Below are positions 191-7,030 of a stretch of DNA of 7,030 nucleotides, in pieces. The DNA comes from Myxococcota bacterium (GTDB taxonomy: Bacteria; Myxococcota_C; UBA6777), in assembly GCA_023150835.1 (NCBI GenBank), contig JAKLKB010000203.1:1-7030 (forward strand), written 5' to 3'. The position numbers were made by a program, and so were the translations under genes. The notes beneath the pieces were generated by a model that saw only the letters and a program-made list of their open reading frames with translations, was not told the origin of the DNA and did not search any database. Each line of letters opens with the position of its first letter. The first letter of the stretch is position 1.

Positions 191-1633
191 TTATTTGGGG
201 AGGGGAGCGGTGGCCCATTCTTGGGTCCAAAAGTCGTCCGGCCCCATGGCACCGAGGTAATCGGTTTTGGTGAAGAAGGTGTCGTCGATTTGAGCGAAAG
301 GGCCTTTGCGTGCGGGAGATTCTTTGGGGGGTCGAAAGTCGAGTTGTTGAAGGGCCGTTGCGGAGGGAAGGATGAGTCCAACGCTAGAGTTAGAGGGGTT
401 AAGTGATCCAAAAAAGTCTTGGAGTGAAAAGGGTGCGTTGGGTGGGGAGGGGGCGAAGAGAGCGCTACAGGAGAAGATGGAGTGTGAGAGAATCAGTCGG
501 TTGGTTAGCTTCCCATTTTCCCACGCATTTTGATATGTTTCGAGATCAGGGATGGAGAGACAGGCTTGTTTGAAGCCAGAGACAAGGAAGTGATAGAGGA
601 TCGCGCCTGTGCCTTCGCGTAGCGTGATGCCGATGTTTCCGAGCGTGGGGAGTGTATGAAGGGAGACGTTGGCGAGTGTGGGTTGTGCGCGTGGGAGGGG
701 AGCGTTTTCTTTGGGGAGGGGGCCGTTGCGTCCTTCGAGGGCGTTGGTGGAGGGGACATTTTGGTAGATGAGCAGGAATTGGGCTTTTCCACGCCAGCCA
801 TCGGTCCATGCGAGGCCATTTTGTGCCGCGTTGGTGATCAGGATGCGCTTGAGTTGGGCGTTTCCGCCTGTGATCGAGAGTCCGTCAGCGCTGCTTGCGT
901 GGAGGCGCACGAATTCGATCGTGGTTTGTGAACCGACGGAGCGAAGGGAAAGCGCAGCGTTGGTGGTTGGTGTGGCCCCTGCGTATTCGATGCGGACATA
1001 ACGGAGGATGCCGCTATTGTCCTCGGGCTTGTCGCCGCCAAAGCGCCCACCGTGAGAGGCGTAGTTTTGGCAAGGGGAAGTCGAGGCGGTGCAATGATTT
1101 TGGGGGGCGTTACCGTTGAGCAGAAGGCCGCCCCAATCGCCTGCGCGGGGGCTTGGAGAAGCCGAAGAAAAAAAGATCGGTTTTTCGCGGGTTCCTTCGG
1201 CGAGGATGCGGGCGTTTCGTGCGATATGGAGGGTGGCGCGGGTGGAGGGATCGGCGAGGATCTTGGTGCCGGGGTCGATGCGCAAGGTGACGGGGGTTTG
1301 GTCGTCGCCAAAGATGACGTTTCCGCGCAAGAGCCAAGTCGTGTCGGCGGTCAGACGGATATCTCTGTTGTAGATGCCCGAGATGACGCAAGGTTCGTTG
1401 GGTTTGGCGGAGCATTCGGGTTTTTGGTTGAGTTTGGAGGAAGAGCAGACAGTGCCAAGGCAAGTGGCGTAGGGAGCGCAGTCTTCGTCTGCTTTGCAGG
1501 TGGCTGGGCCTTGGTATTTGTCGTCGTAGGGGTTGGTGCGTTGGAGTTGCGCGTCAAGGTAGCACGAAGCCGAGAAACACAAGCACAACAGCAAGAGCAC
1601 GGATGAAGCGGGCCTTGACATGGGGATTCTCAT
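191..1633 (-). CDS. Beta-helix-like envelope lipoprotein (intact paralogue)
   Basis: Predicted 480-residue secreted lipoprotein. Residues 1-24 form a signal peptide with a Leu-rich core ending in a lipobox-like FSASC, so lipidation is expected at Cys24. An ATG four codons further in (M5) would serve as well. Residues 47-66 hold one copy of a Cys repeat (C52, C58, C63; the fourth Cys is replaced by Ser). From about 90 onward the protein matches the family with DPGT, AEGTREKPI and DWGGLLLNGNA motifs (120-176), followed by LRYVRIEYAG, GWRG and a C-terminal DYLGAMGPDDFW; this region is predicted to be beta-rich and probably a right-handed parallel beta-helix. Its start overlaps the stop of the PEGA gene in an ATGA (1630-1633), and no strong Shine-Dalgarno sequence is seen, so translational coupling is likely. 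Compared with its paralogue at 5310-6904, acidic motifs are lost: DDGVEFFGG has become ADGLSITGG and GIEADN has become ALEGRN. Exact function is unknown; surface binding or adhesion is only a guess. Confidence 0.9.
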   Translation of the reverse strand: MRIPMSRPASSVLLLLCLCFSASCYLDAQLQRTNPYDDKYQGPATCKADEDCAPYATCLGTVCSSSKLNQKPECSAKPNEPCVISGIYNRDIRLTADTTWLLRGNVIFGDDQTPVTLRIDPGTKILADPSTRATLHIARNARILAEGTREKPIFFSSASPSPRAGDWGGLLLNGNAPQNHCTASTSPCQNYASHGGRFGGDKPEDNSGILRYVRIEYAGATPTTNAALSLRSVGSQTTIEFVRLHASSADGLSITGGNAQLKRILITNAAQNGLAWTDGWRGKAQFLLIYQNVPSTNALEGRNGPLPKENAPLPRAQPTLANVSLHTLPTLGNIGITLREGTGAILYHFLVSGFKQACLSIPDLETYQNAWENGKLTNRLILSHSIFSCSALFAPSPPNAPFSLQDFFGSLNPSNSSVGLILPSATALQQLDFRPPKESPARKGPFAQIDDTFFTKTDYLGAMGPDDFWTQEWATAPLPK

Positions 1634-3147
1634 AGCTTTGTTCTTTTCAGGGTTTCTTGTCCGACGTCACAACCGAGGGCTTGTGGGGAAGGAAGTTGGG
1701 ATTGGGAGAGAAAGAAGATCCCAATTCCGATGGCTGTGGCCCCCAGAGGGGCGCTGATGTGTCCGACCGTCATCCAAGCGTTGGCGGATTGGGCTTGGGC
1801 GGCGTAGGCATCGGCGTATTGGTCAAAGTTGGAGCGTGCGACGCGGTAAGCGGTTTGCTGTCGGATCGCATCTTGGTGGGCGAGATTTCCTGCGGTGTAG
1901 CCGGAGGCTGCGAGGACACCGAGGGCGATCCCGCCGATCAACACGGACCAACCGAGGACCCGTTTTGTGGGGAGAGCGGCTTGTTGTTGACGCCACGTTT
2001 GGTAACGGGGTTCGGGGATCAGATCGAAGTGGATCGTTTGGGAGGATTTGGGTTGGACAAGGATCTTTTTTTGAAGGATCTGGTGGCAAAAACTGCGGAT
2101 ATGGAGCAGAAAATCGCCATCCGGAACAAGGACCGTGAGGGGGGTTGTTCCGCTATAGCGCTCTTCGATGAAGATCTGTGCGCCCGTTGGAGAGGAGGTG
2201 ATGGCGATCTGTGCGGAAGGACGGGGATAAGAGAGGGTGAGTTTTTCGGCGAGGGAGACTTGGAAGGTGCGTCGAAAGGGCAGCGCGTTGGGGTAGTGGA
2301 TATCGAGCGAATAAGGGCCGGGAGGGAGTTTGACGATCCATTGTTGGCCGATGTATCGGAGAGGTTCAAAGAGGGCGGCTCCACGCAGAAGCAGACGGGT
2401 TTTGGGGTCTTCGGTGGTGATCTGAACGAGGCTTTCGCTAGAGAGGGGCGAAAAGCCGTGGTGATAGGTTTCGAGGGCAGAGAGTTGGAGCGGGCGTATG
2501 ATCGGGGCAGAGTCGGGGTAGATCACGGAGGCTTGATAGCGGCCTGCGGGGAGATACCGTGTCCATGTATAGGCGATCTTGCAGCGTTTGGGAGCGGTGG
2601 GGGATTCGATGCAGAGTTGGGCTTTTGCGTCGTAAGAGGAGAGTCGGAGTTTGGCGAAGTTGTGGCGTTTTTGGAGTCGGTTGTGTTCGGTTTGGGCGGT
2701 GCGTTGGCGGTTTTGGTTTTCAAAGAGGGATTCATCGAGGTAGCGGTCAAAGAGTTGTAAGGAGCGGTGGAGCAGATGATCGTGCAAGGGGGATTCTTTG
2801 GTTTGTTGTGCAGCGCGGGTAAAGAGGCGGGAAGCGTTGAGCAGGAGGCGGCCTTTTTTGAATCGATCGATGGGTTTGATCTTGTCGGAAGGTCCGATGG
2901 ATTCGGCGGCTAGGATGAAGCAATCGCCAGCTTCGACGAGTTTTTTTTGACGAAACAACAGGGCGCATTGTTGGAGATCTTGGGCATAGAGCGTAGAAGG
3001 AAGCCACGTCAAAAAGAAGACAGAGAGGAAAAAAGCAGCAAGGTATGTTCTGTTTTTTGAGGAAAAAACAGCGATGGAAGGGAAGTTTTGGGGGAGAAGG
3101 GGGATGGAAGAGAGGGGAGAAACCGAACGAAGGGGAAAGCGCGGCAT
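1630..3147 (-). CDS. PEGA-domain envelope protein
   Basis: Predicted 505-residue protein. The chosen start is the ATG at 3147, which has AAGGAG eight bases upstream and lies 26 bp after the kinase stop; the frame stays open to 3270 inside the kinase gene, but that extension is not needed. Residues 32-55 are a hydrophobic export signal ending STLYA before QDLQQ. Its n-region of about 30 residues is unusually long, and no in-frame later start is available before the hydrophobic core. Residues 57-165 are probably helical and rich in Arg, Gln and Leu. Two beta-rich stretches follow (about 178-225 and 240-305, each with a P-A/P-G-x-Y motif as in PEGA-like repeats). Residues 313-376 fit the PEGA domain well (SSPTGAQIFIEERYSGTTPL, then PDGDFLLHI). 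Two hydrophobic helices (about 397-420 and 462-481) flank a polar, Ala/Gln/Tyr-rich segment near the C-terminus. PEGA domains are common next to myxobacterial-type kinases. A role as an envelope scaffold or partner of the kinase is inferred. Confidence 0.88.
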   Translation of the reverse strand: MPRFPLRSVSPLSSIPLLPQNFPSIAVFSSKNRTYLAAFFLSVFFLTWLPSTLYAQDLQQCALLFRQKKLVEAGDCFILAAESIGPSDKIKPIDRFKKGRLLLNASRLFTRAAQQTKESPLHDHLLHRSLQLFDRYLDESLFENQNRQRTAQTEHNRLQKRHNFAKLRLSSYDAKAQLCIESPTAPKRCKIAYTWTRYLPAGRYQASVIYPDSAPIIRPLQLSALETYHHGFSPLSSESLVQITTEDPKTRLLLRGAALFEPLRYIGQQWIVKLPPGPYSLDIHYPNALPFRRTFQVSLAEKLTLSYPRPSAQIAITSSPTGAQIFIEERYSGTTPLTVLVPDGDFLLHIRSFCHQILQKKILVQPKSSQTIHFDLIPEPRYQTWRQQQAALPTKRVLGWSVLIGGIALGVLAASGYTAGNLAHQDAIRQQTAYRVARSNFDQYADAYAAQAQSANAWMTVGHISAPLGATAIGIGIFFLSQSQLPSPQALGCDVGQETLKRTKL

Positions 3148-3155
3148 GGAGTCGG

Positions 3156-3161
3156 CTCCTT
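3156..3161 (-). promoter_or_regulatory. Ribosome binding site of the PEGA gene
   Basis: On the minus strand AAGGAG stands eight bases before the ATG at 3147. It decides the start of the PEGA protein in favour of 3147 over the open upstream extension that would overlap the kinase C-terminus. Confidence 0.75.
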
Positions 3162-3173
3162 CGGGAGGGGTGA

Positions 3174-5069
3174 TCAGTGGAGGCAATAATCGGGGCTTTC
3201 TTCGAGGAAAGATTTTTTCTTCATTTTGAGGCGAAGACCTTGTCGGAGTTTTTTGACGGGGATGACGCAAAGTTCGTATCCCGGAGAGGAGAGAGTCAGG
3301 TTACCACGCCAAGCGTTGATGGGGAAGCAGATGTGTTTTTGGGCTTCGAGTGTGGTGTAGCGTTTGTGTTCGAGGGTAAAAGCGACGTCTTCAGGCGAGA
3401 GATAGAGGGAGAAGGTGCGGCGTTTGGTCTGGTTGGGATCCGCTTTGCATTGGATCTGTCCATCGTTTGTGCATTGCCATGTGCCGAGGCCTTTGCATTG
3501 ATCGGGGTTGGCGTAGCAGGGTTGTCCTTTTTGGGGGAAATTTTCGTCGATCTTGCCGTTGCAGTCGTCGTCTTGGTTGTTGCAGATCTCTTCTTTGGGG
3601 AGGATTTGACCTACACAAGCAGACCATTTGCCGTCGATACAAGACTGTTGACCAGATTTGCAGGCTCCTTTGTCGCGGGTTTCTTGGGAATCTGTGTAGC
3701 AGGATTGGGTTTGCCCTGAGGTGCATTCTGTGAGGAGTAGCTTGGGTGGTTTGGGTTTGGGCAAGGCGGTGATCACGGTAGGTTTGGAGTAGCGGGAGGC
3801 ATACAAGCCTCCAAACAGACCGATGGCGAGAAGGAGGATTGCACCGAGGAGCAACGGCCAACGAGAAGGACGGGGTGGGGGTGGCAAGGCGACGGAGTCA
3901 TCAGGGTGGATGTGCTGTGGGTGGGCGAGTTGTGCGAGTTTGAGTCCACTGCCGTTGGAGGGGTCTTGGGAGAGGGGTTGTGTCAGAATAGAGGTCGGCG
4001 GAGGGGGAGGTTGCGGGGCGTTTTTGTCTACGAGATCTTCGCTTGCGTATTCGACGCTACTGCTGTTGTCGAAGTCTTTGAGTTGGACCACGTCTTCGGC
4101 AGAGAGTTGGACGGTGAAGTCGGCATCCATTTGGATGGTTTTTTTGGCGTCGCGGATCTGGAAGCGTTTTTCGAGTGTATGGAGTTTTCCGTCGGGTGGG
4201 AGGGCTTGGGCGATGGCTTCTTGGAGTTCGCGACAATTGCTGTAACGCTGGCTGGGGTTTTTTTCGAGGCAGCGCATGATGATATCGCCGAAGGTGGGGG
4301 GGAGGCGCTTGTTGAGTTCGGTGGGATGGGGAGGGACTTCGTGCATATGTTGATAGAGGATGGTTTGCAAACCGCCGCGAAAGGGGACGTGTCCGACAGC
4401 GAGTTGGTACATCATCACGCCCATGGCGTAGATATCGACGCGGTGATCGACTTTTTTGCTGTCTTTGATCTGTTCGGGGGCGGTGTACTTGAAGGTGCCG
4501 AGGATGGAACCTGTGGTGGTTTTTTCGTCGACGTCATCGAGAAATTTAGCGATGCCAAAGTCACCGAGTTTTGGGGCGTAGGTATCGGGTCCGTTGGGGG
4601 TGAGCATGACGTTGCCGGGCTTGAGATCGCGGTGGATGATGCCTTCACCGTGAGCGTAAGCGAGGGCGTCAAGAAGCGGGAGGAGGAGGACGCGGAGTTC
4701 TTCGGGAGAGAGGAGGTGTTTTCCTTGGATCAGATATTGTTTGAGGTCGGGTCCGTCGATCCATTCTTGGACCATGCCGAGGAAGTCGCCATCGTCAAGG
4801 AGTTCGACGACTCGGACGATGGCGTCGTGTTGCATCCGAAATTGGATCTCGGCTTCGCTAATAAAGCGCCCTCGAACGACGCGGTCAACGGCGAGGTGGG
4901 GGAAGAGAAGTTTGAGGGCCATCGGGCGTTTTAGCGGGCGATGGTGGACTTTATAGATCCACGCCATGCCGCCTTGCGCGACAAATTGTTGGACGTGGTA
5001 CCGTTCGGCGATGATCTGGCCGACGATGCAATGGGGGTCTTTTGTGAGATCCTGCGCGGTGATTGTCAT
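3174..5069 (-). CDS. Transmembrane Ser/Thr protein kinase with extracytoplasmic Cys-rich, MopE-type region
   Basis: Predicted 631-residue PknB-type (Hanks) kinase. Start: the ATG at 5069 puts the kinase fold 15-20 residues from the N-terminus, as is usual; the TTG at 5168 gives an unlikely extension. The Shine-Dalgarno sequence is weak. Kinase domain about 20-290: Gly-rich loop AQGGMAWIYKV (31-41), ATP-binding Lys53 in MALKLL, catalytic loop HRDLKPGN (146-153, Asp148), DFG at 170-172, and APE at 197-199. All key residues are present, so it should be active. A cytoplasmic linker with two Pro-rich patches (351-358, 395-401) leads to one membrane helix (404-424). Outside lie about 200 residues with many Cys. 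These include EEICNNQDDDCNGKIDENF (493-511), which fits the Asp/Cys motif annotated as a MopE-type metal-binding motif. The last 80 residues are beta-rich and distantly PEGA-like (RGNLTLSSPGYELCV). It is the first gene of a probable three-gene operon. Ligand and substrates are unknown. Confidence 0.93.
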   Translation of the reverse strand: MTITAQDLTKDPHCIVGQIIAERYHVQQFVAQGGMAWIYKVHHRPLKRPMALKLLFPHLAVDRVVRGRFISEAEIQFRMQHDAIVRVVELLDDGDFLGMVQEWIDGPDLKQYLIQGKHLLSPEELRVLLLPLLDALAYAHGEGIIHRDLKPGNVMLTPNGPDTYAPKLGDFGIAKFLDDVDEKTTTGSILGTFKYTAPEQIKDSKKVDHRVDIYAMGVMMYQLAVGHVPFRGGLQTILYQHMHEVPPHPTELNKRLPPTFGDIIMRCLEKNPSQRYSNCRELQEAIAQALPPDGKLHTLEKRFQIRDAKKTIQMDADFTVQLSAEDVVQLKDFDNSSSVEYASEDLVDKNAPQPPPPPTSILTQPLSQDPSNGSGLKLAQLAHPQHIHPDDSVALPPPPRPSRWPLLLGAILLLAIGLFGGLYASRYSKPTVITALPKPKPPKLLLTECTSGQTQSCYTDSQETRDKGACKSGQQSCIDGKWSACVGQILPKEEICNNQDDDCNGKIDENFPQKGQPCYANPDQCKGLGTWQCTNDGQIQCKADPNQTKRRTFSLYLSPEDVAFTLEHKRYTTLEAQKHICFPINAWRGNLTLSSPGYELCVIPVKKLRQGLRLKMKKKSFLEESPDYCLH

Positions 5070-5143
5070 CGTTTTTGCGATACCTGCCGATTTTACGGTC
5101 CGAAGAGTGATTCTCTCTGGATGGCTTAAACGTACAGAGCGAA

Positions 5144-5159
5144 GTGGCGGCGAAGCCAC
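5144..5159 (-). promoter_or_regulatory. Short inverted repeat in the kinase leader
   Basis: GTGGC (5144-5148) and GCCAC (5155-5159) are perfect inverse complements around a six-base loop. The repeat lies 75-90 bp before the kinase start and has no T run after it. It could be an operator or a leader hairpin; function is not shown. Confidence 0.3.
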
Positions 5160-5191
5160 GAAACTCAAACAGAGGGACTGTAGCAGGAAAC

Positions 5192-5229
5192 AAAAAAATC
5201 CTCAATTCCTTAGGAAATAGGCGATTGAG
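5192..5229 (-). terminator. Probable rho-independent terminator of the upstream lipoprotein gene
   Basis: Reading the minus strand, CTCAAT (5229-5224) pairs with ATTGAG (5206-5201). Between them TTCC and GGAA form an inner stem (within 5217-5207), with unpaired bases on one side. Two bases after the stem comes a run of seven T (5198-5192). The position, 80-120 bp beyond the lipoprotein stop at 5310 and before the kinase, suits a terminator that separates the two transcription units. The stem is AT-rich and bulged, so strength is uncertain. Confidence 0.5.
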
Positions 5230-5309
5230 AAGAAATGGCGATCTTGTCCGATAGACGGGTAGAATCGTTGAAAAGAAGGATGAGTATGGGTGGAGAGATC
5301 GAGGGTAGT

Positions 5310-6904
5310 TCAGTTGGGTTGGTGGTTGGTCCAACCTGTGGTCCAGTCGTTTTTGGGGTCAACTCCACCGAGGAAATCGACCTTTTCGAGAAAGGCGTTG
5401 CCTTGGATCTGTTTGGCTCCTGTGAGGGCGGGAGATCCGGCTTTGGGGCGAAGGTCGGGTTTGGTGTAGTTGAAGGGGTCAGTCAGCATGGGATCAGCGA
5501 TGCGGTTGTTTGGATTGAGGGTGTTAAAGAAATCCTCAACGCTGAAAGGGATATCGGGGCCGGATGCGCTTTTGAAAGGGCTTGCGCATTGAACGAGCGA
5601 GTGTTCGATGGCGAGCGTACCGTTGATTTTTGAGGTGGTGCTGTCCCATGATTTTTTGTAAGTGTCTGCATCATCGACGCGGATACATCCGCCTGTATAG
5701 TTCATAAAGATGGCGTTGTAGATCTTGCTGCCGACACCGCGTCGAAGTCGGAGGGCAGAGCCTTGTCCTGTGGTGTTTGCGCCGACGAAGGTCACGTTGG
5801 CGAGGGTGGGTTGGGTGCGGGGGGTGGCGTTGAAGTCGTTGACATTGTTGTCCGCTTCGATGCCGCTGTCTCCGAGGTTGGGGTATTGGAGTGCTACAAA
5901 GAATTGTCCTGTGCCACGCCATCCAAAGTCGTAGTCAAGGCTGTCATCGCCAGCGCCCGTGACGAGGATGTATTTGAAATTGACCGCACCGCCGAAGAAT
6001 TCGACGCCATCGTCTTCGTTTCTGTGGACTTGGATGTATTCGACGGTGGTTCCCGAGCCGACGGCGTTAAAGGTGATGCCGTTGAGTTCGTTGTCGGGGC
6101 TGACAAGCCGCCCTGCGAATTCGACACGGACATAGCGCAAGACGCCGCTGCTGTCGTTGTCGTTGCTGCCGCCGTACCAGCCAGAACCACCTTCTCCGAA
6201 ACCCTCGCAGGTTCCGAGTGGACTGTTGGGAACACAGTTGTTGAGGGTGGCGTTTCCGTTGAGGACGAGGCCACCCCAGTCGCTTGGCTTGCGTTGTCCT
6301 TGGGGTTTGGCGGAAGTGGAGACAATGGGTTTTTCGCGTGTGCCTTCGGCAAAGATCTTGCTGTTGCGTCGGATGATCAAGATGCCGGGGGTTGTTGTTC
6401 GCCGACGATGGTGGTTCCGGGATCGATGCGCAAGTTGGCGGGTTTGACGTCATCACCGATGTTGACGAGTCCGCGCAAGATCCATTTGATATCGGCGGTG
6501 AGGCGGACATCTTCGGTGTAGGTTCCTGTGAGGATGCAGGTTCCGGGTTCTTCGGAAGGGCAAGATCCACAAGCGCCATCACGACAAACTTGTCCAGAGC
6601 CACAATCACTACTGGTCTTGCAGGGGCTACATTTTTTCTCGATACAAGCCAGACCTGCGCCACAATCTTTGGCGGACTGGCAGGCTTGGCAGACACCTGC
6701 AACACAAGCGAGTTGATCAGCGCAATCGTTGCTGTCTTTGCATTGGGCGCATTTTCCGCTGACGCAAAAGCCGACGCGTGCGCAATCGGCGTCAGCACGG
6801 CAGTTGAGCGTTTTGTCGAAGGATTGATCGTAGGGGTTGTTGCGTTGGAGTTTTTCTTCGAGGTAACAAGCTTGCAAAAAGAAAAAGAGGTAAGTAAGTA
6901 TCAC
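5310..6904 (-). pseudogene. Cys-repeat beta-helix lipoprotein, interrupted by one frameshift
   Basis: Two adjacent frames make up one protein homologous to the 191-1633 product. The first (GTG at 6904 to stop at 6377) gives a short signal ending in FLQAC (Cys13), YLEEKLQRNNPYD, four 20-residue Cys repeats (36-115) and LRIDPGTTIVGEQQ. It then runs into a stop. The second (open from about 6391 to 5310) resumes with IIRRNSKIFAEGTREKPI, DWGGLVLNGNA, LRYVRVEFAG, DDGVEFFGG, GWRG, GIEADN and ends with DFLGGVDPKNDW near the C-terminus. One added base in the run of five G at 6387-6391 joins them into 531 residues and makes the DPGT-to-AEGT spacing equal to the paralogue's (19 residues). No other lesion is seen in the remaining 356 codons, so this is either a sequencing error or a very recent mutation. 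The GTG start gives only 12 residues before the lipidated Cys and no basic n-region, so the true start is doubtful. Confidence 0.85.
6560..6799 (-). repeat. Four tandem 20-residue Cys repeats inside the lipoprotein gene
   Basis: Residues 36-115 of the lipoprotein are four back-to-back units of exactly 20 residues, each with D5-C6, C12, C17 and C20. Examples are KDSNDCADQLACVAGVCQAC and QSAKDCGAGLACIEKKCSPC. The paralogue at 191-1633 has a single unit (1436-1495) that lacks the last Cys. The even Cys number suggests internal disulfides, which is consistent with an exported protein. DNA identity between units is limited, so the duplication is not recent. Confidence 0.85.
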
Positions 6905-7030
6905 TAAGTTTCTTCAACTTTCGCGCCCGAAGAACGGGTTCGTTCAAAAAAGATGGCGATGAAGAGGTCACCGACGCAACAGAGATCGGGCAGGCACGGG
7001 GGCCTGCCCCTACGAAACACCGTGTGATTT
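6905..7030. other. Right-edge intergenic region
   Basis: There is no gene here. The region holds the REP-like hairpin at 6988-7013 and a small inverted repeat AAGTT/AACTT (6906-6910 and 6916-6920) just before the GTG at 6904, whose loop contains the only weak Shine-Dalgarno-like bases. No convincing promoter for the lipoprotein gene is visible; it may start outside the window or use an atypical promoter. Confidence 0.5.
6988..7013 (-). repeat. REP-like hairpin with GTAGGGGC head
   Basis: GGGCAGGC (6988-6995) pairs perfectly with GCCTGCCC (7002-7009) around the loop ACGGGG. On the minus strand it begins GTAGGGGCAGGC (from 7013), the same head as the palindrome at 80-103 but with a different stem sequence. 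The shape and the GTAG foot suit a REP or RAYT-mobilised repeat. No transposase is in the window. Confidence 0.6.

Follow-up and report, generated by a model that had tools for sequence, protein, structure and literature searches.

A recurrent kinase, PEGA protein and lipoprotein gene unit in one Myxococcota family: a possible envelope sensor with interchangeable heads

The window, one entire contig of 7,030 nt from the 7.56 Mb draft genome of an uncultured, probably myxobacterium-like bacterium, carries a gene unit that recurs in its lineage, presumably as an operon, and in which the genes for a Ser/Thr kinase spanning the membrane, for a PEGA protein and for a lipoprotein follow one another. 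More tentatively, we propose that the three products form an envelope-spanning sensory unit in which the lipoprotein would provide an interchangeable head. The parts are of known kinds, and our searches of the open-access literature turned up no account of such a unit.

RESULTS

Gene Organization of the Window

All four genes of the window are on the minus strand, in the order lipoprotein 2, Ser/Thr kinase, PEGA protein, lipoprotein 1. This is the arrangement given in the original prediction, down to the coordinates, and the 26-bp gap and the ATGA overlap that it described are both present in the sequence. The features are as follows:

5310..6904, minus: lipoprotein 2, beta-helix family, split into two frames (ORFs, paralogy)
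6904-6377, minus: N-terminal ORF of lipoprotein 2, with signal, lipobox FLQAC, CYLEEKLQRNNPYD and Cys-rich repeats
6387..6391, minus: C5 run, at or near the frame shift of lipoprotein 2 (sequence)
6380-5310, minus: C-terminal ORF of lipoprotein 2, beta-helix
3174..5069, minus: Ser/Thr protein kinase, 631 aa (Pkinase, E 7e-46)
Kinase residues 24-280: Hanks-type kinase domain, cytoplasmic (Pfam Pkinase)
3798..3854, minus: predicted TM helix of the kinase, residues 406-424 (hydropathy)
3148..3173, minus: kinase-PEGA gap, 26 bp, between the kinase stop (3174) and the PEGA start (3147) (sequence)
1630..3147, minus: PEGA protein, 505 aa (PEGA, E 4.4e-9, third domain)
2023..2658, minus: three tandem PEGA-type domains (Pfam and predicted model)
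1630..1633, minus: ATGA overlap of the PEGA stop and the lipoprotein 1 start (sequence)
191..1633, minus: lipoprotein 1, 480 aa, lipobox FSASC, mature CYLDAQLQRTNPYD (sequence pattern)
1562..1564, minus: codon of the predicted lipidated Cys of lipoprotein 1 (lipobox)

The kinase, PEGA and lipoprotein 1 genes are presumably co-transcribed. No RNA families or tRNA were found in the window, in which promoter-like matches were not above shuffled sequence; terminator-like matches numbered 14 for a shuffle mean of 8.9 (sd 3.0), all of them consensus matches only. Near one contig end (85-102) lies a perfect palindrome, GGCGGTTCGCGAACCGCC, with 86 copies in the window's genome, 78 in the congener and 0 in the two searched family genomes of other genera; it is a dispersed repeat restricted to the genus. 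The inverted repeat at the opposite end (6988-7009), GGGCAGGCCCCCGTGCCTGCCC, is likely another dispersed repeat and the cause of the assembly break.

Conservation of the Unit in Five Genomes

We surveyed five genomes of the window's family, all fragmented assemblies: the window's own, one congener and three from other genera. The sample, 15 full-length PEGA homologues with their loci, represents one family only and leaves uncounted a few more divergent PEGA-family loci, such as L214, where a kinase and a lipoprotein occur in the same order. A lipoprotein gene was directly downstream on the same strand at all 15 loci, and a kinase gene was directly upstream at 11 of them. The kinase-PEGA-lipoprotein succession was recovered in all five genomes as a recurrent unit; homologues that are never neighbours, the situation that would speak against the original prediction, did not occur among them.

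Four PEGA-lipoprotein pairs (C50, C364, G004:C43, and G002:C647) lacked a directly upstream kinase. The kinase of G002:C647 is downstream of the lipoprotein, and none is nearby in the other three. With four of the 15 loci arranged in this way, the kinase is either separable or acts in trans. The window's genome itself harbors two complete units, C165 (beta-helix) and C125 (Cys-rich and propeller-like), together with the kinase-less pair C50.

The lipoprotein bodies varied within the family: we observed beta-helices, Cys-rich (MXAN_6577-like) bodies with an SBBP-type propeller, and WD40 bodies. The beta-helix had been proposed as a defining part of the module, a status that it loses in view of the propeller or WD40 bodies of other copies. 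Despite these varied bodies, 15 of the 16 module lipoproteins had a mature N terminus of the form C-[YF]-[LIVM]-[DENP]. By comparison, 36 further lipoproteins predicted in these genomes included a single one whose Cys is followed by Y or F. These statistics concern the retrieved loci only, and for a few of the 16 the Cys escaped the lipobox pattern or was assigned to the wrong position, and was instead read by eye from the translation. The motif would suit docking, and it would suit export or sorting equally well.

Kinase and PEGA distances were correlated over 12 modules (Spearman 0.58, permutation p 0.003) and over the 7 core modules (Spearman 0.63, p 0.009), the correlation reflecting in part species relationships. 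The beta-helix module G003:C69 was the nearest non-orthologue of C165 for both genes.

Genomes rich in kinases and lipoproteins could place such genes together without any common function, and those studied here do contain many kinases and PEGA/TPR-family genes. We nevertheless regard such a coincidence as very improbable: adjacency was found at 15/15 and 11/15 loci in one order and on one strand, kinase and PEGA divergence were correlated, and the lipoproteins had a common N-terminal motif. The 15-locus neighbourhood survey thus led us to reject chance adjacency.

At locus L151 (8655-12106), the kinase-PEGA pair was followed by two consecutive similar lipoproteins (starting GCYINLEAP and GCYIPLDDP), possibly a tandem duplication of the head.

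The Kinase and the PEGA Protein

The kinase matched Pkinase with 157.2 bits, above the curated Pfam cutoff of 31.7, and all catalytic motifs were present (ALK 51, HRDLKPGN 146, DFG 170, APE 197). Its predicted periplasmic part, of about 200 aa, is Cys-rich, with 14 cysteines and a small C-terminal domain. The label "MopE-type" of the original prediction was not borne out, since the MopE motif (PF11617) scored only 16.2 bits (E 0.012), under the curated Pfam cutoff of 27; the reading as a MopE kinase was rejected on this ground. The nearest solved structures were PknB/StkP-like bacterial kinases. The PASTA kinases PknB and StkP similarly combine a cytoplasmic kinase domain, a single TM helix and an extracytoplasmic part. 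The window kinase differs from them by a Cys-rich outer part and by recurrent PEGA and lipoprotein neighbours; Pfam found no PASTA domains in it, and its score with the PASTA kinase model NF033483 (265.5 bits) was under the cutoff of 450.

The PEGA protein has three predicted tandem PEGA-type beta domains (residues 164-232, 239-307, and 312-375), of which Pfam detected only the third (PF08308, 36.6 bits for a cutoff of 20.8). They are preceded by an N-terminal hydrophobic segment and predicted TPR-like helices (residues 55-161) and followed by a predicted helical hairpin with two hydrophobic segments (residues 380-482). The structural model (pLDDT 77.6, pTM 0.37) had low confidence in the overall arrangement, and its only meaningful matches were of single domains, to transthyretin-like/Ig-like folds. 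A sequence search of solved structures with the lipoprotein and PEGA profiles returned chance matches only.

A larger family (L183-L222) of proteins of roughly 330-550 aa has the same TPR-like domain at the N terminus as the PEGA protein, and Cys-rich lipoproteins often adjoin its members. Among shorter PEGA relatives, a kinase was directly adjacent in 22 of 43 cases.

Lipoprotein 1 Is a Predicted Beta-Helix

Lipoproteins 1 and 2 are predicted bacterial lipoproteins by their signal peptides and lipoboxes. Structure prediction bore out the beta-helix proposed for lipoprotein 1, with a right-handed beta-helix covering about residues 70-465 (pLDDT 86.2, pTM 0.84). VIA-align gave Z scores of 23 to NosD and 22 to AlgE4 and Pel9A. 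The predicted fold is thus that of NosD, AlgG/AlgE epimerases and pectate lyases (Z 21-23 over ~280 residues), with identities of only 7-12%. No Pfam or NCBIfam model covered lipoprotein 1 or the relatives tested, and Foldseek returned nothing below 0.001 for lipoprotein 1. The Pfam Beta_helix model (PF13229) did not match lipoprotein 1, and its best score with a relative was 17.1 bits for a cutoff of 25.9.

The Lipoprotein Family and TonB Systems

Of the 235 Myxococcota genomes sampled, 99 had a member of the lipoprotein 1 family, which also occurs in Bacteroidetes, Nitrosomonas, Verrucomicrobia and others. Genes for a TonB-dependent receptor, ExbB/TtpC or DUF3450 occurred in the retrieved stretch at 48 of the 62 annotated Myxococcota loci. 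The window's genome has such a copy: at C87 (L018, G000:C87, 7656-15278), a beta-helix lipoprotein of the family is upstream of a TonB system, being followed by genes for DUF3450/TtpB, TtpC, ExbB/ExbD, TonB, and a TPR protein. Relatives of lipoprotein 1 thus adjoin DUF3450/TtpB, TtpC/ExbB and TonB-dependent receptor genes, a point of likeness to the TonB2/TtpBCD transport operons of Vibrio; DUF3450 corresponds to TtpB2, which Vibrio vulnificus needs to take up iron by way of TonB2 (PMC6957404).

Because the family is mainly TonB-linked in other Myxococcota, the role of lipoprotein 1 may be transport-related. It could be an accessory of a TonB system that works with a TonB-dependent receptor and has been placed in a kinase operon, with the kinase and the PEGA protein regulating nutrient uptake; the 48 TonB-linked loci, the C87 copy and the requirement for TtpB2 in V. 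vulnificus all speak in this direction. On balance, we consider this explanation quite unlikely. In the window, the family member belongs to a kinase-PEGA operon, and ttpB-ttpC-exbB-exbD-tonB are absent from the 7 kb contig, which ends 190 bp past lipoprotein 1. Furthermore, the lipoproteins of sister modules built on this kinase and PEGA protein are of the propeller or WD40 kind and lie outside the family, and the CY motif present in the modular copies is absent from the C87 lipoprotein.

Kinase-linked copies of the family were also recovered from outside the window's family, at four Polyangium loci and at L282, L293 and L316. The Polyangium loci (L091, L092, L093, and L115) group a kinase, a TPR/TM protein and a beta-helix lipoprotein. 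With an hhalign probability of 48%, the protein between the other two bears only a weak likeness to the PEGA protein, so this architecture may be convergent. L282 (4125-9541), from another Myxococcota genome, has a kinase, a PEGA protein, a beta-helix lipoprotein and a TPR/TM protein in a row, which also holds an ABC-type substrate-binding lipoprotein.

Lipoprotein 2 Is Broken and Not Conserved

The two lipoproteins had been proposed to be paralogues, and their similarity was indeed far beyond chance: lipoprotein 1 shares 37% identity over 353 aa (E 2e-68) with the C-terminal piece of lipoprotein 2 and matches its N-terminal piece with an E value of 3e-23. The frameshift that separates these pieces, which the original prediction did not mention, may be a sequencing error or a real mutation producing a pseudogene.

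The congener locus matched the window at 93.6%, a similarity limited to 5298-1370 and breaking 12 bp from the lipoprotein 2 stop. Upstream of the kinase, where the window has lipoprotein 2, the congener has an ion-channel gene. The upstream lipoprotein therefore drops out of the module as first described: lipoprotein 2 is not a conserved part, because the congener lacks it beside the kinase. It is probably a lipoprotein from another module copy or a local insertion, and it shows similarity to the lipoprotein at the end of the G003:C69 module. A misassembly of the window or of the congener contig is another possible source of the difference.

The original prediction had interpreted lipoprotein 2 as arising by tandem duplication and serving the kinase as another, co-regulated output. 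Its paralogy with lipoprotein 1 agrees with a duplication, as does its likeness to the G003:C69 lipoprotein, which suggests that it may derive from another module copy. We find this scenario improbable, given that the frame of lipoprotein 2 is broken, that no such gene is present beside the congener kinase, with the similarity stopping so close to the lipoprotein 2 stop, and that 240 bp separate lipoprotein 2 from the kinase start. As an essential second output, lipoprotein 2 was weakened as a candidate by the frameshift and the congener locus.

DISCUSSION

A constant kinase-PEGA pair combined with variable extracytoplasmic heads is what an interchangeable-input sensor would look like. Gene conservation strongly suggests a functional unit, and it weakly suggests a direction of signal flow. 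In the mechanism that we tentatively favor, the lipoprotein would be anchored in the outer membrane and would expose a beta-rich, swappable head, here the beta-helix, able to bind a ligand at the surface or in the periplasm. The C-terminal hairpin of the PEGA protein would fix it in the inner membrane, its TPR-like and three PEGA domains extending into the periplasm, where it would link the lipoprotein head to the kinase through the latter's Cys-rich outer part. The kinase would then phosphorylate targets in the cytoplasm.

The sensory module of the original prediction thus stands as far as the recurrence of the three genes in five genomes is concerned. The idea of the lipoprotein as a direct phosphorylation output does not fare as well: the kinase domain is cytoplasmic, the established topology of such proteins, and the lipoprotein is presumably exported, so that it is unlikely to be a direct target.

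The main rival of the sensor reading is that the kinase and the PEGA protein control how the lipoprotein is exported, assembled or displayed; the lipoprotein would then be an effector and not a sensor. Candidate effectors would include an adhesin, a protein binding or depolymerising polysaccharides, or a nutrient-capture protein. In its predicted fold, the beta-helix is like carbohydrate-active proteins such as AlgE/AlgG, pectate lyases and tailspikes. PEGA-lipoprotein pairs without an adjacent kinase would be expected if the PEGA protein serves the lipoprotein itself, and the N terminus common to the mature lipoproteins could mark them for export or sorting. However, the Cys-rich and presumably periplasmic outer part of the kinase would be typical of a sensor, unrelated folds are swapped on the same kinase-PEGA pair, and likeness of fold shows no catalytic function. 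We therefore judge control of the lipoprotein as an output to be unlikely.

The sensor reading has a functional analogy in the Rcs pathway, which consists of the outer-membrane lipoprotein RcsF, the inner-membrane protein IgaA and the kinase RcsC. The proposed logic would be the same, with an outer-membrane lipoprotein, an inner-membrane partner reaching into the periplasm and an inner-membrane kinase. Rcs, however, is a histidine phosphorelay, whereas the unit described here has interchangeable lipoprotein bodies and adjacent genes.

A more specific version of the sensor reading, which we consider rather doubtful, would be a previously undescribed sensor class in which one kinase-PEGA chassis accepts swappable heads that dock by their acylated C-[YF]-[LIVM]-[DENP] N terminus. 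If this were true, swapping beta-helix, propeller and WD40 heads would let the bacterium multiply its surface sensing.

To our knowledge, what most of the eukaryote-like kinases of bacteria related to myxobacteria sense is not known. These bacteria have very large numbers of such kinases (PMC2887360). The kinase-PEGA-lipoprotein unit offers candidate dedicated input partners for them, and the widespread beta-helix lipoprotein family gains a context, mostly with TonB systems in the Myxococcota loci examined and sometimes with kinases.
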